From an uncultured Bradyrhizobium sp. (GTDB lineage Bacteria > Pseudomonadota > Alphaproteobacteria > Rhizobiales > Xanthobacteraceae), in assembly GCF_947648125.1 (NCBI RefSeq), contig NZ_CANSMR010000013.1:62001-126000 (forward strand): a stretch of DNA of 64,000 nucleotides, given 5' to 3'. Shown piece after piece: positions 11,899 to 20,753 of the stretch. The position numbers and the translations under genes are program-made. The notes under the pieces were generated by a model that worked only from the letters and a program-made list of their open reading frames with translations, searched no databases and was not told where the DNA came from. Position 1 is the stretch's first letter, and each line of letters begins with the position of its first letter.

Positions 11899-12026
11899 CG
11901 CCCGTAACAAGCCCGCCTCCCCGGCGAAACTCCCACCATGACGCAGCCGTAGCTTCTGGCTCGTGCCTTTGCGTTCGCACCGGACACCGGCGCAGGCTGC
12001 GTGGCGGAATATTGGGAGGGTTTCGC

Positions 12027-12491
12027 ATGAATTTCATCGTCAACCTGCTGATTCTGCTGCCGGCGCGGATCGCCGCGCATTTTTCCTGGGCCGGGCCGCT
12101 GATCATGCGGATCATCGTTGGCTACACCTTCATGCTGGCCGGCTGGGGCAAGCTCACCAACCTCGCCCAGGTCACCGAGAACTTCGCCGGCTGGGGCATT
12201 CCGTTCCCGACCATCCTCACCCCCTTCGTGTCCGGCGTCGAATGCTTCGGCGGCGCGATGCTGATCCTCGGCCTGTTCACCCGCATCCCGGCTGCGATGC
12301 TCGCGGTGGTGATGATCGTCGCGATCAAGTCGGCCAAATGGGGCGACGTCGATTCGCTGGAGACGCTGCTCGGGTTCGAGGAAGCGACCTACTTCGCCGC
12401 CTTCATGTGGCTTGCGATCGCAGGTCCCGGCGCCGCCTCGCTGGACCGCCTGCTGGTCAACGCGACCGAGGGCCAGAAGGCGCCGACCTGA
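12027..12491 (+). CDS. DoxX family membrane protein
   Basis: The product has 154 residues and four membrane segments. It contains the DoxX-type stretches LIMRIIVGYTFMLAGWGKL and SGVECFGGAMLILGLFTRIPA. GGAGGG lies 6-11 bases upstream of the ATG. DoxX proteins often accompany DUF692/bufferin systems (BufD in published bufferin operons is a DoxX protein, from memory). This copy sits 2.7 kb upstream of the bufA genes, separated by the DUF255 gene, so a role in the same pathway is plausible but inferred. Confidence 0.85.
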   Translation: MNFIVNLLILLPARIAAHFSWAGPLIMRIIVGYTFMLAGWGKLTNLAQVTENFAGWGIPFPTILTPFVSGVECFGGAMLILGLFTRIPAAMLAVVMIVAIKSAKWGDVDSLETLLGFEEATYFAAFMWLAIAGPGAASLDRLLVNATEGQKAPT

Positions 12492-12588: not shown

Positions 12589-14379
12589 ATGAGACTTGTC
12601 CGCAGCATCGCAATCCTCATGGCGTTGAGCGCACAGCCCTCACTTGCGGCGGACGCCCCGGCATGGAGCGACTGGAGCCACGATCTGTTCACGCGCGCCG
12701 CGACCGAGAAGCGGTTCGTCATCCTCGATCTCGAGGCGGCGTGGTGCCACTGGTGCCACGTGATGGAGAAGACGACCTACGCCGACCCCAAGGTACAGGA
12801 GCTGCTTGTGGCGAAGTATCTCCCGGTCCGCGTCGACCAGGACGCCAATCCGGATCTCTCGAGCCGCTACGGCGACTGGGGCTGGCCCGCGACCATCGTG
12901 TTCGCGCCCGACGGCAGCGAGATCGCCAAGATCAGGGGCTATATCGAGCCGGAGCGGATGCAGGCACTGCTCAAGGCCATCATCGACGATCCCTCGCCGG
13001 GCCCGTCGGTCGGCGAGGCGTTCGAGATCAAGCCCGCCACCTCGGCCTTTCTCGGCAAGGCGCAACGCACCGAGCTGACCAGGACGTTCGACGAATCCTA
13101 CGACGACAAGCTCGGCGGCTGGGGCGAGAACCAGAAATATATCGACGCCGACAGCCTCGACCTTGCGATCAGCCGAGCCGAAGCCGGCGACACCACGGCA
13201 ACGAGGCGCGCAAGGCAGACCCTCGATGCCGCGATCGCGCTGATCGATCCGGTGTGGGGCGGCGTGTTCCAGTATTCGGAAGGCGGCTCCTGGAGCCATC
13301 CGCATTTCGAGAAGATCATCTCGTTCCAGTCGCAATATCTGCGGCAGTACAGTCAGGCCTATGTGCAGTGGAAGGAGGCGAAATATCTCGCGGCCGCGCG
13401 CAACGTCGAACGTTACCTGACGGATTTCCTGCTGAGCCCCGACGGCGCCTTCTACGTCAGCCAAGACGCCGATCTCGATCACGAGGTCGACGGCCACGCT
13501 TATTATGGGCTTGATGATGCCGCGCGCCGCAAGCTCGGCCTGCCTCGCGTCGACAAGAACCTCTATGCGCGCGAGAACGGCTGGGCGATCTCCGGCCTCG
13601 TGGCCTATTACGACGCGAGCGCCGATCCGAAGGCGCTGGCGATCGCCGAGCGCGCCGCGAAATGGGTGCTCACCAATCGCGCGCTGCCGGACGGCGGCTT
13701 CCGCCATGGCGACAAGGATCGCGGCGGCCCCTTCCTCGGCGACACCGTCGCGATGGGACAGGCCCTGCTCGATCTCTACGCCGCGACCGGCAATCGCGAC
13801 TGGCTGATGTCGGCGGTGCGAGCCGGCGACTTCGCCGCGACGTTCCGCGACGAGGCCGGCGGCTTCTTCACCTCGAAGACGTCGGAAGGGCAGGCCGGCG
13901 TGTTCGCGAGGCCCGCCAAGCTGATCGACGACCAGATCCAGGTCGCGCGCTTCATGAACATGCTCAATCGCTATGTCGGCAGCGACGGCACCCGTGAACT
14001 GGCCGCGCATGCGATGCGCTATCTCGGTGCGGCTTCGAGCGAGATGCCGCGGCCGATGCCCGGCGTGCTGCTCGCCGACGAGGAACTGGCCACCGAGCCG
14101 ACGCATGTCACGATCGTCGGACACAAGGACGACGCTCGCGCGCAACGCCTGCATACGATCGCCCGCGCCCTGCCCGCCCGCTACAAGCGGCTCGAATGGC
14201 TCGACCTGCGCGAGGGCAAGCTGCCCAACCCGGACGTCGACTACCCCGACCTCGGCGAGCCCGCGGCCTTTGCCTGCAGCAACCGCATCTGCTCGTTCCC
14301 TGCGTTCAGCGCCGAGGAATTGCAGGCGAACGTGGCGCAGATGGCGAAGCTGAAGCCGGCGCGCGCGGCACAAAACTGA
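12589..14379 (+). CDS. Periplasmic thioredoxin-like DUF255 protein (YyaL/SPATA20-like)
   Basis: This is a 596-residue protein with a signal peptide (cleavage probably after PSLA, residue 20). The N-terminal thioredoxin-fold domain carries AAWCHWCHVME, with cysteines at 53 and 56, the hallmark CHWC of the DUF255 family. It is followed by a long alpha/alpha-barrel-like region containing GGFRHGDKDRGGPFLGD and a C-terminal domain. Most family members are cytoplasmic; the signal peptide here places this one in the periplasm. Together with CcdA and DoxX it forms a plus-strand thiol-redox group before the bufferin genes. The substrate is unknown. Confidence 0.85.
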   Translation: MRLVRSIAILMALSAQPSLAADAPAWSDWSHDLFTRAATEKRFVILDLEAAWCHWCHVMEKTTYADPKVQELLVAKYLPVRVDQDANPDLSSRYGDWGWPATIVFAPDGSEIAKIRGYIEPERMQALLKAIIDDPSPGPSVGEAFEIKPATSAFLGKAQRTELTRTFDESYDDKLGGWGENQKYIDADSLDLAISRAEAGDTTATRRARQTLDAAIALIDPVWGGVFQYSEGGSWSHPHFEKIISFQSQYLRQYSQAYVQWKEAKYLAAARNVERYLTDFLLSPDGAFYVSQDADLDHEVDGHAYYGLDDAARRKLGLPRVDKNLYARENGWAISGLVAYYDASADPKALAIAERAAKWVLTNRALPDGGFRHGDKDRGGPFLGDTVAMGQALLDLYAATGNRDWLMSAVRAGDFAATFRDEAGGFFTSKTSEGQAGVFARPAKLIDDQIQVARFMNMLNRYVGSDGTRELAAHAMRYLGAASSEMPRPMPGVLLADEELATEPTHVTIVGHKDDARAQRLHTIARALPARYKRLEWLDLREGKLPNPDVDYPDLGEPAAFACSNRICSFPAFSAEELQANVAQMAKLKPARAAQN

Positions 14380-14701
14380 TTAAAATGCAAACTGTGCAAC
14401 GCAGCAAACCGATCGGCTCGGCGCAATGAAATACTCTCCGGCCGACGGTGTTTGACATGGACCGGGCGTCAGACCCGGCCCAGACAAAATTTTCTTTTGA
14501 AGCGCTGTAACCAAATCGCCTGATACCCCGTAGCTGATCTTGGACGAGCACTCAAATCGCGGGAAGCACCGCGCCGCGGACGCCCCTGCGATCTGATTGT
14601 TCTCCGAATGTCCATCCGTTGTGCGGTCCGGGATCGAACGATCGAAGGATGCTCACGGCGCCATGTTTTTTTGCCTTCAAACAATCACCGAGGAGATCGT
14701 C
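14380..14701. other. Leader region upstream of the bufferin genes
   Basis: This 322-base stretch holds no gene that I can support. It contains a weak hairpin at about 14461-14483 (CCGGG...CCCGG) that may terminate the DUF255 transcript. It also holds an ECF-sigma-like promoter motif (listed) and a long leader of about 165 bases before bufA1. Confidence 0.7.
14507..14532 (+). promoter_or_regulatory. ECF-sigma-like promoter motif upstream of the first bufA
   Basis: GTAACC at 14507-14512 is followed after 16 bases by CGTAGC at 14529-14534. A near-identical arrangement occurs upstream of the second bufA. GTAACC is, from memory, the -35 element of Caulobacter SigF promoters, and SigF controls bufferin genes there. 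The -10-like part differs, so assignment to an ECF factor is inferred. Confidence 0.55.
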
Positions 14702-14965
14702 ATGAAGTTGAATTCGAAGTCCGGCGCAACGCTCGCCGTCGCTGCGGCCACCCTGTTCCTCGCCGGCTCGGTGGTTTCGACCACCTCGACGCCCGCGAAT
14801 GCCGCCATGGGCAAGTGCATGGCCGGCAACGCCTGCAAGGGCCAGAGCGCCTGCAAGGGCGGCGCCAATTCCTGCAAGGGCCTGAACGCCTGCAAGGGCA
14901 CCGGCTTCTCGCTGAGCTCGGAAAAGCAGTGCAACGCGATGGGCGGCAAGTTCGTCAAGGGCTGA
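14702..14965 (+). CDS. bufA: Bufferin-type RiPP precursor (BufA, DUF2282 family), first copy
   Basis: The 87-residue precursor has a Sec-type signal peptide (MKLNSKSGAT..., likely cleaved after ANA at residue 34) and a short Lys/Gly/Cys-rich core. The six core cysteines (C39, C45, C51, C58, C64, C77) are arranged as GKC, NACKGQSACKGG, SCKG, NACKG and QC. Bufferins are exported peptides whose cysteines are modified by a DUF692 enzyme so that they bind copper. GAGGAG lies upstream of the ATG. The second precursor gene (15151) has identical cysteine spacing. The gene is followed by a strong terminator hairpin, so it can be expressed well above the enzyme genes. Confidence 0.88.
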   Translation: MKLNSKSGATLAVAAATLFLAGSVVSTTSTPANAAMGKCMAGNACKGQSACKGGANSCKGLNACKGTGFSLSSEKQCNAMGGKFVKG

Positions 14966-14983
14966 TCGCATCGTCTCACGAGG

Positions 14984-15009
14984 GGCCCGGCGACGGCGCC
15001 GGGCCTTTT
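14984..15009 (+). terminator. Rho-independent terminator/attenuator after the first bufA
   Basis: A perfect 9-bp stem (GGCCCGGCG / CGCCGGGCC) with a 4-base loop is followed by TTTT. It lies 18 bases after the bufA stop and before the second promoter-like motif. Confidence 0.85.
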
Positions 15010-15043
15010 CACGCCAAGGCGTGGATAAATGATCCCGGCATGG

Positions 15044-15068
15044 GTAACCAAAGCCGACCAGATCCGTA
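15044..15068 (+). promoter_or_regulatory. ECF-sigma-like promoter motif upstream of the second bufA
   Basis: GTAACC at 15044-15049 is followed after 15 bases by CGTAGC at 15065-15070. The arrangement repeats the site before the first bufA, with a spacer one base shorter. Together with the terminator just before it, this suggests that the second precursor gene has its own start of transcription. Confidence 0.5.
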
Positions 15069-15150
15069 GCTATCTTTGGGTGCAGCCTTCGGCCAACTCA
15101 CACGGTTTGCAGGCGGCGCACCTTCAACCATCTTGCACAAGGAGACGCTC

Positions 15151-15408
15151 ATGAAGCTTACAACCAAGTCCGGTGCCACACTTGCCGCCGCCGCCGCCAC
15201 GCTTTTCCTGGCCGGAGCCGTGGTGTCGACGCAGTCCTACGCTGCGAGCGAAGGCAAATGCGTCGGCGCCAATGCCTGCAAGGGCCAGAGCGCCTGCAAG
15301 GGCGGCAATCACGCCTGCAAAGGTCAGAATGCCTGCAAGGGCCAGGGCTTTGCGCAGATGACGAAGGCCGACTGCACCGCGGCGAAGGGCAAGTTCAAGG
15401 CCGGGTGA
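15151..15408 (+). CDS. bufA: Bufferin-type RiPP precursor (BufA, DUF2282 family), second copy
   Basis: This 85-residue precursor has a signal peptide ending near SYAA (residue 32). Its core cysteines C37, C43, C49, C56, C62 and C75 are spaced 6-6-7-6-13, exactly as in the first copy. The block NACKGQSACKGG is shared. AAGGAG lies 8 bases upstream of the ATG. Other core positions vary (for example NHACKGQNACKGQG here), so the two copies look like diverged tandem duplicates that could differ in expression or metal preference. Confidence 0.88.
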   Translation: MKLTTKSGATLAAAAATLFLAGAVVSTQSYAASEGKCVGANACKGQSACKGGNHACKGQNACKGQGFAQMTKADCTAAKGKFKAG

Positions 15409-15426
15409 ACGGATCGGACCAAGCGG

Positions 15427-15452
15427 GGCCCGGTGTAGGCCGGGCCTCGTTT
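15427..15452 (+). terminator. Terminator/attenuator between the second bufA and bufB
   Basis: A 7-bp GC stem (GGCCCGG / CCGGGCC) with a 6-base loop is followed by TCGTTT. The T run is imperfect, so partial read-through into bufB is likely. This would give excess precursor over enzyme. Confidence 0.7.
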
Positions 15453-15511
15453 CCATGATAGTTTTTTGAAGTTGGGCGCCACGACCCTGGCGCCAGAAGC
15501 GCGGAGCCGCC

Positions 15512-16411
15512 ATGAACGTCGCGAGCCGATCACCGGACAAGTCGGTGCTCGCAGAGCGCCCGCTGCAATCAGCCAAGCCGCCGTTCCTCGGCTTCGGCCT
15601 CGGCCTGCGTGCCCAACACTACGACGAGATCCTGAACGGAAATCCGCCGATCGACTGGTTCGAGGTGATCAGCGAGAACTACATGCTGCCGGGCGGCCAG
15701 CCGCTGCGCATCCTCGACCGAATCTGCGCGCGCTATCCCGTGGTGATGCACGGCGTCTCGCTGTCGATCGCCTCCACCGCGCCGCCGAATTTCGACTATC
15801 TGCAAAGCCTGAAGGACCTCGCGGCGCGCGTGCAGCCTAAATGGGTGTCCGACCATCTGTGCTGGACCGGTGTGCACGGCAAGAACCTGCACGATCTGCT
15901 GCCGATCCCCTACACGCAGGAGGCGCTCGATCACGTCGTGAGCCGGGTGCAGCTGGTGCAGGATTTCCTCGGCCGCGCCATCGTGCTCGAGAATGTCTCG
16001 ACCTATGTGCAGTTCAACAATTCCGAGATGACGGAGTGGGAATTCCTCTCCGAACTGTCGCGCCGCTCCGGCTGTTGGCTGCTGTTCGACATCAACAATG
16101 TCTATGTCAGCGCTTTCAACCACGGCTACGATCCGATGGCCTTCCTCAACGGCATTCCAGCCGATCGCGTGGTGCAATTTCACATGGCAGGCCACAGCCA
16201 TATGGGCACCCACATCATCGACACGCACGACCATCCGGTGTGCGAGGATGTCTGGGACCTCTATGTCGCGGCGTTGAAACGGTTCGGACGCGTCTCGACC
16301 ATGATCGAGCGCGACGACAACATCCCGCCGCTCGACGAATTGCTGCGCGAGGTCGAGCGGACCCGCGAGATCGCCGGGCAGGTGCTACCCGCAGGCGCGC
16401 CGGCGGCATGA
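15512..16411 (+). CDS. bufB: MNIO-family (DUF692) RiPP-modifying enzyme BufB
   Basis: The 299-residue protein belongs to the multinuclear non-heme iron oxidative enzyme family (DUF692, also MbnB). Likely metal ligands are visible in order: H80 (VVMHGVSLS), D114/H115 (SDHLCW), E150 (LENVSTY), D183/N186 (FDINNVY), H214/H218 (FHMAGHSH), D227/H229 (DTHDH) and E256 (MIERDDN). Known members oxidise cysteines in precursor peptides to form heterocycles that bind copper. It directly follows two BufA genes and overlaps bufC by 4 bases (ATGA), which fixes its role with confidence. The enzyme should act in the cytoplasm before export of the peptide. Confidence 0.92.
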   Translation: MNVASRSPDKSVLAERPLQSAKPPFLGFGLGLRAQHYDEILNGNPPIDWFEVISENYMLPGGQPLRILDRICARYPVVMHGVSLSIASTAPPNFDYLQSLKDLAARVQPKWVSDHLCWTGVHGKNLHDLLPIPYTQEALDHVVSRVQLVQDFLGRAIVLENVSTYVQFNNSEMTEWEFLSELSRRSGCWLLFDINNVYVSAFNHGYDPMAFLNGIPADRVVQFHMAGHSHMGTHIIDTHDHPVCEDVWDLYVAALKRFGRVSTMIERDDNIPPLDELLREVERTREIAGQVLPAGAPAA

Positions 16412-17193
16412 GCGACTTCGCGCGCCAGCAGAGCGAGTTTCAGCACGCCATCCTCACCGGCGACGAGGGCATCTTGACCGAAATCCTCGACAGCCCCAAG
16501 GAGACGCGCGCGACGCTGTTCGGCGTCTATCGCCATGCCTACGGCTCGCGGCTGGTCGAGGCGATGCGCAACGACCACGAGCTGCTGCATCAATTTCTCG
16601 GCGACGAGATGTTCGACGAGATGGGCCATGCCTACGTCAAGGCACGGCCGTCCGAGCATCCGAACCTGCGCTGGTTCTCGCAGGGATTGCCGGATTTCCT
16701 GAAGGCCACCGCACCGTACAGCAACCATCCGGTGCTCGCCGACCTCGCCGCGCTGGAGAAGGCGCTCAACGACGCGTTCGACGCCGCCGAGGGCGCCGTG
16801 CTCGCGCTGGAGGCGATGGCCGGTTTCGCACCCGAGCAGTGGAACGATCTGGTGTTCCAGCCGCATCCGAGCGCTGCGAGGGTCGACCTGTCGACCAATG
16901 CGGCCGCAATCTGGATGGCATTGAAGAACGACGAGACGCCGCCCGAGGCGGAGGCGCTCGTCGAACCCGCCCGCCTCCTGATCTGGCGCCAGGACACCAC
17001 GCCGATGTTCCGCGAGCTGCCGACTGAGGAAGCGATGATGTGGGATGAAGCCTCTGATGGCGTTCCGTTCGGCGTGCTCTGCGAGATGCTCGCGACCTAT
17101 GATGATCCCGACAACGCCGCAGCGCGCGGCGCCGGCTATCTGCATGGCTGGATCACGGCGGGGCTTCTGACAGCGGCATCCATCCGCAAATAG
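16408..17193 (+). CDS. bufC: DUF2063 bufferin-associated protein BufC
   Basis: This 261-residue protein has the DUF2063 N-terminal domain (FARQQSEFQHAILTG, then VYRHAYGSRLVEAMRNDHELLHQFLGDEMF). DUF2063 proteins are the partner of DUF692 enzymes and are thought to bring the precursor to the enzyme. Its ATG overlaps the bufB stop (ATGA). It is followed 12 bases later by the creatininase-fold gene, so transcription and probably translation are linked. Confidence 0.9.
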   Translation: MSDFARQQSEFQHAILTGDEGILTEILDSPKETRATLFGVYRHAYGSRLVEAMRNDHELLHQFLGDEMFDEMGHAYVKARPSEHPNLRWFSQGLPDFLKATAPYSNHPVLADLAALEKALNDAFDAAEGAVLALEAMAGFAPEQWNDLVFQPHPSAARVDLSTNAAAIWMALKNDETPPEAEALVEPARLLIWRQDTTPMFRELPTEEAMMWDEASDGVPFGVLCEMLATYDDPDNAAARGAGYLHGWITAGLLTAASIRK

Positions 17194-17205
17194 AGGGCCC
17201 GCGGC

Positions 17206-17982
17206 ATGGGCGCCGACATCGTCAGCCATTTCATCGAACGCCTCACCTGGGACGAGGTCGCGCGGCGAATTGGGGCTGAGCGACCGGCGATCCTGCCGAT
17301 CGGCGCCGCCGCCAAGCAGCACGGTTTCCATTTGCCGCTCAACACCGACCGCCTGCAGGCCGAGTGGTTTGCGGCGCATCTCGCCGAACGCATCGACGCG
17401 CTGATCTGGCCAACCGTCACCTACGGTCACTACCCCGCTTTCGTCGAATATGCCGGTAGCGCCAGCCTGTCGGCAGCAACGTTCGAAGCCATGGTGCATG
17501 AGATCGCTGCCGGCATCCTCGGCGGCGGCGTCAACAGATTGTTCGTGCTCAACACGGGGATCAGCACGCTCGCTCCGGTCGAACGCGCGCTGGCGGGCTT
17601 CGAACCGGGCCGGGTGAGGCATCTGCGGCTCTACCAGGGCCCGCGCTTCCGCCGCACGGCCGAGCAGCTCTCCGAGCAACGCCATGGCAGCCATGCCGAC
17701 GAACTGGAGACGTCCCTGATGCTAGCGCTGGCTCCGGACGTAGTCGATCCGGCACGCGCCGAAGCCAGCCCCGCCCTGCGGCGCGAGGCGCCCGGCCGCC
17801 TGACGCCGTCGGACCGCACTTCGCCGAACTACAGCCGCTCCGGCAGTTACGGCGATCCGACGCTCGCGACATCAGCCAAGGGCGAGGCGCTGCTCGCGGC
17901 GATTCTCGACGATCTCTCCGATCAGGTGACCGCGGCCCTTGGCGAGAACGCCATGCCACGGCGGCGCGGCACACCGCGATGA
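17206..17982 (+). CDS. Creatininase-family protein with altered metal-binding motifs
   Basis: The 258-residue protein has the creatininase fold signatures LPIG...QHGFHLPLNTD (about residues 30-45) and HADELETSLMLALAP (about residues 162-176). In the family the first motif is EQHG; here it is KQHG, so the metal-ligand Glu is replaced by Lys. The usual NGHGGN/NGHxEN motif reads LNTGIST, so another His and acidic/Asn ligand are missing. The QHG histidine, the TD aspartate and the E of ETS remain. Active relatives hydrolyse amides, and MftE, a relative, trims the mycofactocin peptide. Placement in a bufferin operon makes peptide processing or binding worth considering, but catalysis is doubtful. 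The stop overlaps the next gene. Confidence 0.75.
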   Translation: MGADIVSHFIERLTWDEVARRIGAERPAILPIGAAAKQHGFHLPLNTDRLQAEWFAAHLAERIDALIWPTVTYGHYPAFVEYAGSASLSAATFEAMVHEIAAGILGGGVNRLFVLNTGISTLAPVERALAGFEPGRVRHLRLYQGPRFRRTAEQLSEQRHGSHADELETSLMLALAPDVVDPARAEASPALRREAPGRLTPSDRTSPNYSRSGSYGDPTLATSAKGEALLAAILDDLSDQVTAALGENAMPRRRGTPR

Positions 17983-18968
17983 GGAGCATCCCGACCTATC
18001 GCGTGATCGCCGCCGCGATGCTGGTCGCGGCGATCCTGATCGGCATCGCATCGTGCCACGTCGAGGCGCAGTCCGAGTTCATGCGCGGCGAAGGCATGCC
18101 TTACGACGCCTTCGACCGGTTGCCCAAGACCGATCTCGACGTCGCCGGCGCCACCATTCATGTCGGGTTCGCTCCCGGCGATATGGCGCTGCCGAAGGAA
18201 AAAATATTCGACTGGATCAAGGCGTGCGCCCGCGCGGTCTCGATCTATTACGGCCGGTTTCCCGTCAGCTCGTTGCGGCTGCTGATCGTGCCGGTCGACG
18301 GTTCGCGCGTTCGCGGCGGCACCACATGGGGCTATCGCGGCGCCGCGATCCGGCTGCCGATCGGCCGCGACGCGGGCGTCGACGATCTCAAGCGCGACTG
18401 GGTGATCGTGCACGAGATGGTGCACACCGCCCTGCCCGATCTCGACGACCGCTACGCCTGGCTGTCGGAAGGGCTCGCGGTCTATGTCGAGCCGGTCGCG
18501 CGGGTGCAGGCCGGCGATCTCACGGCGCGGGAGATCTGGCTGGCGATGCTGCGCGACATGCCCAAGGGCCTGCCGCAGGCCGGCGACGCGGGCCTCGACA
18601 ATACCGACACCTGGGGCCGGAAATACTGGGGCGGCGCGATGTTCTGCCTGTTCGCCGATGTCGAGATCCGCAAACGGACCGGCAACAAATTCGGCCTGCA
18701 GGACGCGATGCGCGGCGTGCTCGCCGCCGGTGGCAATCACGAGAAGGACTGGCCGATCGCGCGGGTGCTCTCGACCGCCGACAAGGCGGTCGGCGTCGAC
18801 GTGCTGACGCGGCTGCACGACGAGTGGGGATCGAAGCCCGTGACACCTGATCTCGCCGCGCTGTGGCGCGACCTCGGCGTTAGGCTTCAGGGCGAGAGCG
18901 TCGAATTCGACGATCGCGCGCCGCTGGCGGATATTCGCAAGGCGATCACCGAAGCGCGCGCGGGATAG
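17979..18968 (+). CDS. Putative HExxH metallopeptidase-like lipoprotein of the bufferin operon
   Basis: The 329-residue product begins with a hydrophobic leader ending in IASC (residues 23-26), which fits a lipobox with C26 as the lipidated residue. The middle has VIVHEMVHTAL (H145, E146, H149) and, 15 residues on, WLSEGLAVYVEP with E164. This is the gluzincin pattern HExxH...E found in M1-like peptidases. It is therefore probably a zinc metalloprotease or a catalytically reduced relative anchored in the envelope. It overlaps the creatininase-fold gene by 4 bases (ATGA), making it the last gene of the extended bufferin operon. Its substrate is unknown; the exported bufferin is one candidate. 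Confidence 0.7.
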   Translation: MRSIPTYRVIAAAMLVAAILIGIASCHVEAQSEFMRGEGMPYDAFDRLPKTDLDVAGATIHVGFAPGDMALPKEKIFDWIKACARAVSIYYGRFPVSSLRLLIVPVDGSRVRGGTTWGYRGAAIRLPIGRDAGVDDLKRDWVIVHEMVHTALPDLDDRYAWLSEGLAVYVEPVARVQAGDLTAREIWLAMLRDMPKGLPQAGDAGLDNTDTWGRKYWGGAMFCLFADVEIRKRTGNKFGLQDAMRGVLAAGGNHEKDWPIARVLSTADKAVGVDVLTRLHDEWGSKPVTPDLAALWRDLGVRLQGESVEFDDRAPLADIRKAITEARAG

Positions 18969-19064: not shown

Positions 19065-20753
19065 ATGGCCGACGTTCATCAGACACGCGCCAACTGGCCG
19101 ATCTTCCGCTCGCTGAGGGCGTTCCGGCCGGGCGACTTGCCCGGAGATCTGATCGCCGGGTTGACGCTCGCCGCAATCGCGATCCCCGAGCAGATGGCGA
19201 CCGCGCGGCTCGGCGGCTTCTCGCCGCAGATCGGCTTCTTCGCCTTCATGGCCGGCTCGCTCGGCTTTGCGATGTTCGGCGCCAACCGCTTCCTGTCCTG
19301 CGGCGCCGACTCCACCATCACGCCGATCTTCGCGGCCGGCCTGGCGCTGATGGCGACCGCTGGCTCGCCCGATTATCAGTCGCTGGCGATGGCGCTGGCG
19401 CTGATGGTCGGCGCGATCATGATCGCCGGCGGCCTGTTCAAGCTCGGCTGGATCGCCAATCTGCTGTCGACGCCGGTGACGGTCGGCTTCCTCGCCGGCA
19501 TCTCCGTCCACATCCTGGTCTCGCAATTGCCGGGTGTGCTCGGCCTGACCACGCCGGACGGGCCGACGCTCTACAAGCTCGGGGTCCTCACTGAGAAGAT
19601 CGGCCAGACCAATGCCTACACGCTGGCGATCGGCCTCGGCGTGCTGGCGCTGGTTGCCGGATCGGAGAAGATCAGCGCGCGGATTCCGGGCGCACTGATC
19701 GGCCTTGTGGTGGCCACTATCGCCGTGATCGCCGGCCAGCTCGAAAGCAAGGGCGTCAAGGTGGTCGGCACCGTGCCCGGGTCGCTGCCGACGCCATCGC
19801 TTCCGGTCATCGCTCCGGAGCGATGGATCAAACTGTTGTCGCTGGCGATCCTGATCTCGATCGTGGTCATGGTGCAGACCGCGGCGACGACGCGCTCGTT
19901 CCTGTCAGATCCGGACAAGCCGGCCGACGTCGATCGCGACTTCCTCGGCGCCGGTGCCGGCAGCCTGCTCGCCGGCCTTTTCGGCGCCTTTCCGGTCAAT
20001 GCCAGCCCGCCGCGCACCGGCATCGTCTCGGAGACCGGCGGCCGCACGCAGCTTGCCGGCCTGTTCGCCGCCGCCATCGTGCTCGCGCTGCTGGCGTTCG
20101 GTGCGACGCTGCTGCAGCACGTGCCCGATGCGGCGCTCGGCGGCGTCCTGCTGTTCGTGGCGCTCCGCATCATCCGCGTGAAGCAGATCGTCGCGATCTA
20201 CCGCCAGTCGTTCTACGAATTCCTGCTGGTGGTGGCGACGGCAGCCGCGATCATCGTGCTGCCGATCGAGCAAGGCGTCGCGGTCGGCATCGCGTTGTCG
20301 CTGCTGCACGGCATCTGGACCACGACACGCGGCCAGCTGGTGGAATTCGTCCATGTGCCCGGCACCACGATCTGGTGGCCGACCGGCCCGCACGTCGCCG
20401 GCGAGCGCAAGCCCGGCATTGCCGTGGTCGGCCTGCAGGCGCCGTTGTCGTTCCTCAACGCAGAAGGTTTTCACAGCGGCGTGCTCAAGACCATCGGCCG
20501 CGCGACACCCAAGCCGAAACTGCTGGTGATCGAGGCCAGCGGCATGGTCGAGATCGACTTCACGGCGGCGCAGGCGTTGCGCGACCTGTTTCGCGAATGC
20601 CGCGATGACGGCGTGACGGTGGCGGTGGCGCGGCTCGAATCCTCCCGCGCCCAGGAGGCGTTCGAGCGCTTCGATCTCTACGGCGTGCTGCAGAGAGACC
20701 ACGTCTTCCACAGCGTCGATGAGGCGGTCCGCACGCTCGGCGGGCAGAGCTAG
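19065..20753 (+). CDS. SulP-family anion transporter with STAS domain
   Basis: This is a 562-residue SLC26/SulP transporter. About residues 1-410 contain some 10-12 membrane segments, including DLIAGLTLAAIAIPEQMATARLGG and GLFGAFPVNASPPRTGI, which match the family. About residues 435-555 form a cytoplasmic STAS domain (GIAVVGLQAPLSFLNAEGF ... LVIEASGMVEIDFTAAQALRDL). It moves sulfate, bicarbonate or another anion; the substrate cannot be told. It lies 96 bases downstream of the bufferin operon, probably in its own unit. GGGAGACC precedes the ATG. Confidence 0.9.
   Translation: MADVHQTRANWPIFRSLRAFRPGDLPGDLIAGLTLAAIAIPEQMATARLGGFSPQIGFFAFMAGSLGFAMFGANRFLSCGADSTITPIFAAGLALMATAGSPDYQSLAMALALMVGAIMIAGGLFKLGWIANLLSTPVTVGFLAGISVHILVSQLPGVLGLTTPDGPTLYKLGVLTEKIGQTNAYTLAIGLGVLALVAGSEKISARIPGALIGLVVATIAVIAGQLESKGVKVVGTVPGSLPTPSLPVIAPERWIKLLSLAILISIVVMVQTAATTRSFLSDPDKPADVDRDFLGAGAGSLLAGLFGAFPVNASPPRTGIVSETGGRTQLAGLFAAAIVLALLAFGATLLQHVPDAALGGVLLFVALRIIRVKQIVAIYRQSFYEFLLVVATAAAIIVLPIEQGVAVGIALSLLHGIWTTTRGQLVEFVHVPGTTIWWPTGPHVAGERKPGIAVVGLQAPLSFLNAEGFHSGVLKTIGRATPKPKLLVIEASGMVEIDFTAAQALRDLFRECRDDGVTVAVARLESSRAQEAFERFDLYGVLQRDHVFHSVDEAVRTLGGQS

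Follow-up and report, generated by a model that had tools for sequence, protein, structure and literature searches.

A Buf2-type bufferin locus of Bradyrhizobium extended by a peptidase-like HExxH gene and a creatininase-fold gene

Bufferins form a very large family of copper-protective ribosomally synthesized and post-translationally modified peptides (RiPPs), and the clusters described for them hold few genes. In the window analysed here, the whole 64,000-nucleotide stretch of contig NZ_CANSMR010000013.1 from an uncultured Bradyrhizobium sp. (host genome of 8.57 Mb), six co-directional genes at 14702–18968 encode two BufA2 precursors, BufB, BufC, a creatininase-fold protein and a protein with an HExxH zinc-binding motif, hereafter the HExxH protein. 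Do the last two genes belong to the bufferin system and, if so, what would their products do there? The six genes are the following.

14702..14965, + strand: BufA2 precursor a, 87 aa, six Cys, CKG repeats, signal-like N-terminus by eye (NF050166, 74.7 bits, cut-off 60)
15151..15408, + strand: BufA2 precursor b, 85 aa, six Cys, CKG repeats (NF050166, 83.9 bits, cut-off 60)
15512..16411, + strand: BufB, multinuclear non-haem iron-dependent oxidase (MNIO) maturase (NF050167, 387.6 bits, cut-off 310; PF05114, 7.8e-113)
16408..17193, + strand: BufC, DUF2063 partner (PF09836, 1.8e-19, over cut-off)
17206..17982, + strand: creatininase-fold protein, ‘K’ subfamily, no signal peptide by eye (PF02633, over cut-off)
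17979..18968, + strand: HExxH protein, signal-like N-terminus, M61/M1-like zinc peptidase domain (by predicted fold)

The sequence-only reading of this DNA had named two six-Cys precursors, a DUF692 enzyme and a DUF2063 partner, and had proposed that the two added genes, tightly coupled to the others, form a joint system with bufABC. The family assignments hold, with NF050166, NF050167, PF05114 and PF09836 all over their cut-offs, as do the 12-base gap between bufC and the creatininase gene and the 4-base overlap between the creatininase and HExxH genes in the open reading frame (ORF) coordinates. With four (A/S)CKG motifs apiece, the precursors fit the ‘Cys-Lys’ group of PMC13097082 as described in the excerpted text of that paper.

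The linkage of the HExxH gene to bufBC, and its co-occurrence with one clade of BufB, are strong. An even draw of 198 genomes from the same family yields BufB orthologues (at least 79% identity) in 11, and a full-length HExxH gene adjoins bufBC in the same 11; the HExxH protein was matched in 12 of the 198, the twelfth match being weak (G128, E 3e-4). A creatininase orthologue (at least 449 bits, with the next best match at 98) lies between bufC and the HExxH gene in nine of those 11 genomes and nowhere else among the 198. A scan of named genomes gave 126 HExxH relatives, the best 80 of which were examined, 53 being at least 57% identical to the window protein (close loci) and 27 below that value (distant loci). 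The closest include the versions of Bradyrhizobium altum Pear77 and Bradyrhizobium sp. RD5-C2 and C9, at 93–96% identity. Buf genes lie just upstream of the HExxH gene in 52 of the 53 close loci, one of which (L056) was counted by a bufC fragment; L068 is the sole close locus without them, in 1.4 kb of upstream sequence. The creatininase gene is present in 42 of the 53. Ten close loci, including those of Bradyrhizobium BTAi1, two Methylobacterium and a metagenome-assembled Rudaea genome, keep bufBC and the HExxH gene without it, so that the HExxH gene is the steadier partner. Among the 27 distant loci, the sequence fetched around the HExxH gene includes buf genes in three (L090, L100 and L108, within 9 kb).

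The spacing of the genes is also conserved. The 4-base overlap of bufB and bufC (ATGA) recurs in 48 of 51 loci and the gap from bufC to the creatininase gene is 10–27 bases in 40 of 43, while the spacing between the creatininase and HExxH genes in 42 loci is −4 in 35, −1 in three and +10 in one, with broken or miscalled frames in three. Both added genes have dN/dS values of 0.12–0.36 (seven pairs). The precursor and maturase genes vary in number: L026 and L028 have three tandem bufA precursor matches (one partial in L028) followed by a single bufB–bufC pair, and L141 and L090 each carry a pair of MNIO genes, a DUF2063-type partner accompanying either one, with similarities to the window BufB of 58/44% and 56/45%, respectively.

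The association extends beyond the neighbourhood. We used a sample of 387 genomes of the class, in which the BufB clade was taken as the group scoring at least 285 bits (limit 280; others at most 257) and the K subfamily of creatininase as scores of at least 142 bits (others at most 109). The BufB clade occurs in 30 genomes, the HExxH protein in 17 and the K-type creatininase in 18; the clade and the HExxH protein share 15 genomes (1.3 expected), the clade and the creatininase ten (1.4 expected), and the HExxH protein and the creatininase ten (0.8 expected). The HExxH protein is found in 15 of the 30 genomes with the BufB clade versus two of the 119 with only other MNIOs. Counted by genus, the clade is present in 21 and the HExxH protein in 12 of 263 genera, with ten shared, and all ten class genomes that carry both added genes also carry the clade. 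In the nine such genomes other than our own, the pair lies within 3 kb in seven. The arrangement varies: in L130, L132 and L141, which belong to families other than that of the window, the buf, HExxH and creatininase genes lie together in other orders or strands (in L132 also with a thioredoxin-domain gene); in L139 the order bufA-B-C-HExxH is the usual one and the creatininase gene is missing; and L131, L137, L138 and L140 have the creatininase–HExxH pair, the sequence fetched around it containing no bufB. A search for BufB in the 28 whole genomes of the 27 distant loci and L068 found the clade in 24 (at least 294 bits) and not in four; omitting the three genomes with nearby buf genes leaves 21 of 25. 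Of 106 genomes sampled evenly from the phylum, six have the clade and two the HExxH protein, both of the latter together with the clade. The claim of a joint system is thus borne out for the HExxH gene, and with moderate confidence for the creatininase gene as a member of the module.

What kind of protein is the steadier partner? The HExxH protein (329 residues) matches no Pfam family at E 0.1 or at E 5. Its zinc site (H145, E146, H149 and the downstream E164) is intact in 56 of 56 aligned sequences and, by its predicted fold, it is an M61/M1-type zinc peptidase catalytic domain. The best Foldseek match by E-value is PDB entry 7xyo, titled as an M61 family member of Myxococcus fulvus; the M61-like chains matched are longer, at 524–605 residues. 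The Pfam M61 family itself (PF05299) gives no match to the window protein at E 5, and scores of 19.0 and 18.5 bits versus a cut-off of 22 for the longer relatives in L131 and L132. The single sequence homologue in the PDB (SAKe6BE-3HH, six weak stretches) was judged spurious. The sequence-only reading had recognized the HExxH motif correctly and had also called the protein a putative lipoprotein; this second part was rejected, since Cys26 is present in only four of the 56 aligned sequences, that of the window among them. Most Bradyrhizobium relatives show an AxA-Q site like that of signal peptidase I (read by eye), and the protein is probably located in the periplasm.

Some HExxH relatives differ in architecture. 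The distant proteins in L090, L095, L096, L103, L105 and L107 start with twin-arginine-like signals (RR motif, by eye), unlike those of Bradyrhizobium; one may speculate that zinc folding before twin-arginine-type export could spare them mis-metallation by copper. Those at L131:8213-9547, L132:7578-9038 and L140:1028-2395 (444–486 aa) have an additional N-terminal stretch that the window protein lacks. At L027:3921-5882 the HExxH relative continues into a C-terminal S9/prolyl-oligopeptidase-like domain as one fusion protein, and the 13 kb of sequence there hold no buf gene. In G015, a second HExxH relative is likewise a fusion, with a peptidase domain of the S9 type, and the sequence fetched around it lacks buf genes.

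The unit seems to reach further upstream than the six genes of the sequence-only reading, and to include doxX, a thioredoxin-domain gene and three boxes resembling the sigma-F promoter of Caulobacter crescentus, as follows.

11904..11927, + strand: variant sigma-F-like box GTAACA-N15-CGA, upstream of doxX (relaxed pattern)
12027..12491, + strand: DoxX family membrane protein (PF07681, 1e-20, over cut-off)
12589..14379, + strand: thioredoxin-domain protein (Thioredox_DsbH/DUF255; dsbH), CHWC motif, signal-like N-terminus (PF03190, 3e-22)
14507..14533, + strand: sigma-F-like box GTAACC-N16-CGTAG, 195 bp upstream of precursor a (pattern scan)
14980..15009, no strand assigned: hairpin after precursor a, predicted strong by folding, 13 pairs, TTTT within the 3′ arm
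15044..15069, + strand: sigma-F-like box GTAACC-N15-CGTAG, 107 bp upstream of precursor b (pattern scan)
15421..15452, no strand assigned: hairpin after precursor b, predicted strong by folding

Because of these boxes, the variant one before doxX included, doxX and the thioredoxin-domain gene probably belong to the unit. doxX, whose product is below the NCBIfam HvfX cut-off (67 versus 80 bits), sits 5′ of bufA in many relatives. The thioredoxin-domain gene is present in 41 of the 53 close loci versus none of the 27 distant ones, and adjoins buf genes in L184, L186 and L187. On the 3′ side, a SulP-family sulfate permease gene (19065–20753) starts 96 bp past the HExxH gene; this position is kept only in some close Bradyrhizobium relatives, and SulP was rejected as a seventh gene, being found 3′ of the HExxH gene in only some of the 80 loci.

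The exact box GTAACC-N15/16-CGTAG has two matches in the window versus 0.01 expected. The whole genome has three, versus 19 for the reversed pattern; the pattern is therefore not enriched genome-wide, yet two of its three sites are at the buf locus. The third (L207, G000:C19:27313) lies upstream of an ORF resembling an alpha/beta hydrolase by eye, and may be due to chance. A looser box (GTAAC[CT]-N14-17-CGT within 250 bp upstream) precedes bufAa in 36 of 38 loci and bufAb in 43 of 49, compared with zero and one in shuffled sequence; upstream of the other genes it is rare or absent (dsbH 1/39, bufB 2/49, bufC 0/51, creatininase 0/42, HExxH 0/60, doxX 0/39). doxX has instead the relaxed variant (mostly GTAACA-N-CGA) in 39 of 39 loci, a figure that stands without a shuffled control, and the strict pattern in none of the 39. 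The mean folding energy of the 60 nt past the stop codon is −30.1 kcal/mol for bufAa (37 loci) and −29.4 for bufAb (49 loci), versus −17.4 for bufC (53 loci) and −19.1 for the HExxH gene (59 loci); bufAa rows in which one bufA match covered both genes were left out of the box and hairpin counts. Such strong hairpins after bufA would fit more precursor than enzyme message. A scan for sigma-70 promoters and T-rich terminators found none of either; the post-bufA hairpins, which may act in termination or in stabilization, do not pass that terminator scan. In C. crescentus the sigma-F box is GTAACC-N16-CGAA, upstream of its two MNIO operons (excerpts of PMC3511200). The precursors of those operons are of the DUF2282 type, whereas those of the window are BufA2.

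Gene identity, linkage, co-occurrence, the conserved boxes and hairpins and the intact zinc site are all evident at the level of sequence. We somewhat favour the explanation that an accessory module is dedicated to this Buf2-type (BufA2, ‘Cys-Lys’) bufferin locus, and that its HExxH peptidase acts on exported bufferin. Promoters for a sigma-F-like extracytoplasmic function (ECF) factor would switch on doxX–dsbH, precursor a, and precursor b–bufB–bufC–creatininase–HExxH. BufB–BufC would oxidize the precursor cysteines in the cytoplasm and Sec would export the modified precursors, as is known for the family. The exported HExxH protein, a putative stand-alone M61/M1-type domain, would most likely act on bufferin in the periplasm. 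There it might process the modified peptide, for which the processing of a lanthipeptide by MfuP is a model (excerpts of PMC10885120), or it might degrade bufferin that has failed or is loaded with metal. MfuP, an M61 metallopeptidase, is a precedent from a different setting, a lanthipeptide cluster of M. fulvus and not an MNIO system. The creatininase-fold protein would be a cytoplasmic accessory, probably not essential to the peptidase step, since most such loci have it but some do not.

Could the HExxH protein instead serve general envelope quality control, degrading copper- or oxidant-damaged periplasmic proteins and being merely co-regulated with bufferin, with DoxX and the thioredoxin-domain protein in the same stress response? 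This is the alternative that we take most seriously, while considering it unlikely. The presence of doxX and the thioredoxin-domain gene at the locus would suit it, as would the resemblance of the boxes to that of the C. crescentus sigma-F regulon, which responds to chromium and cadmium (excerpts of PMC3511200), and the many genomes in which the HExxH gene sits apart from buf genes. A general protease, however, would not be expected to track one BufB clade and not other MNIOs (15/30 versus 2/119).

The creatininase-fold protein raises its own question. It passes the Pfam creatininase family and shows the creatininase fold, as the sequence-only reading had it, but is under the NCBIfam cut-offs for creatininase (93.4 versus 235 bits) and MftE (72.7 versus 172 bits). 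The canonical metal ligands of creatininase are Glu34, His36, Asp45, His120 and Glu122. Equivalents of His36 and Asp45 are retained, the Glu34 position is a lysine, and the GHYEN stretch (His120 and Glu122) aligns to TG-ST or to a gap. In 30 rows of the K subfamily, the ligand Glu position is Lys in 29 and Arg in one, a count that is circular because the rows were selected by Lys, Arg or Gln at that position; the K-type clade and the replacement of the two-ligand loop in the same rows are free of this circularity. On this alignment, the active site has been rebuilt across the subfamily to which the protein belongs. The K-type genes in L146, L147, L154 and L156 adjoin FAD_binding_2 oxidoreductase genes, with no buf or HExxH genes in the stretch, and that in L154 is also next to an alpha/beta-hydrolase-type gene; this neighbourhood is a second context for the subfamily. 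In plasmid records, the HExxH protein has no matches and the creatininase family one, at 35%.

Creatininase itself opens a cyclic amide. On a bolder reading, the added genes would serve to edit and recycle a metallophore that bears heterocycles: in the periplasm, the peptidase would cut modified bufferin to small thiooxazole-bearing copper chelators or free the copper, and the K-type protein would hydrolyse wrong or spent heterocycles in the cytoplasm. We regard this as a long shot; if true, it would be, to our knowledge, the first system that proofreads or recycles the heterocycles of an MNIO product.

Several points weigh against a dedicated module. The score limits for the BufB clade and the K subfamily were chosen after the gaps were visible. 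The HExxH protein is missing from 15 of the 30 class genomes and four of the six phylum-sample genomes with the BufB clade, and is therefore not essential. The base rate of six in 106 with which the 28 whole genomes are compared comes from a phylum sample that is not matched to them by taxon. The sequence-only reading had held a joint system unlikely if the added genes occurred independently of bufABC in related genomes; at close range they do not, but further off they partly do, since neither the HExxH protein nor the BufB clade is found in eight of the 18 class genomes that have the creatininase subfamily (in the four checked, its gene adjoins those of FAD-dependent oxidoreductases) and two of the 17 with the HExxH protein lack the clade. 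Finally, in a tree of the 30 class BufB proteins, one well-supported subclade holds 20, of which 15 are from HExxH genomes, as are none of the ten outside it, so that shared ancestry explains part of the co-occurrence. Could it explain all of it, the genes being merely co-inherited in Bradyrhizobium and its kin without a common function? One genus does supply most close loci, and the HExxH genomes are confined to that subclade. We nevertheless hold this to be quite improbable, given the different gene orders in other families, the loci in Methylobacterium and Rudaea, and the BufB clade in 21 of 25 genomes without buf genes near the HExxH gene; the unlinked and rearranged cases argue for a function beyond inheritance.

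The least probable proposal, taken from the sequence-only reading, gives the creatininase-fold protein a cytoplasmic role in trimming the bufferin precursor, like that of MftE, a creatininase family member within the mycofactocin RiPP cluster. The fold, the lack of a signal peptide by eye and the tight coupling to bufC (at most 27 bases in 40 of 43 loci) are in its favour, but the scores below both cut-offs, and the replacement of the ligand Glu (by Lys or Arg in rows chosen by that position) and of the ligand loop, make such trimming doubtful. Moreover, the gene is missing from ten of the 52 close loci retaining bufBC and HExxH, and a Sec-signal precursor would require no cytoplasmic leader removal.

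The locus stands close to the Buf2 (BufA2B2C2) clusters, or ‘Cys-Lys’ captophorins, with which it shares the BufA2 and BufB families, the DUF2063 partner and a nearby DoxX; the CKG repeats also resemble the NACKG 5-mer tested in PMC13097082 (excerpts). It differs from them by the added genes for an M61-like peptidase, a K-type creatininase-fold protein and a thioredoxin-domain protein. Excerpts of PMC12452194 report extra conserved genes at such clusters only in extremely low proportions, with a 10-bp intergenic limit for unrelated genes; this limit could miss the added genes, because only one of 43 gaps between bufC and the creatininase gene is 10 bases or less. According to excerpts of PMC12538549, the related mmr clusters have no protease gene nearby. 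The main texts of PMC12452194 (creatinin, peptidase, M61) and PMC13097082 (creatinin, peptidase, protease) are without those words, and among the matches listed from the open-licence PMC literature, none joins an MNIO or bufferin with a creatininase or an M61 peptidase. The locus is thus a conserved extension of the Buf2 bufferin cluster, undescribed, as the sequence-only reading had supposed, as far as our literature search reaches.

The locus draws attention to a branch of the creatininase family in which the active site is rebuilt. A peptidase relative that follows one BufB clade, even where it is unlinked, would make the fate of exported bufferin, be it trimming, turnover or copper release, open to experiment.

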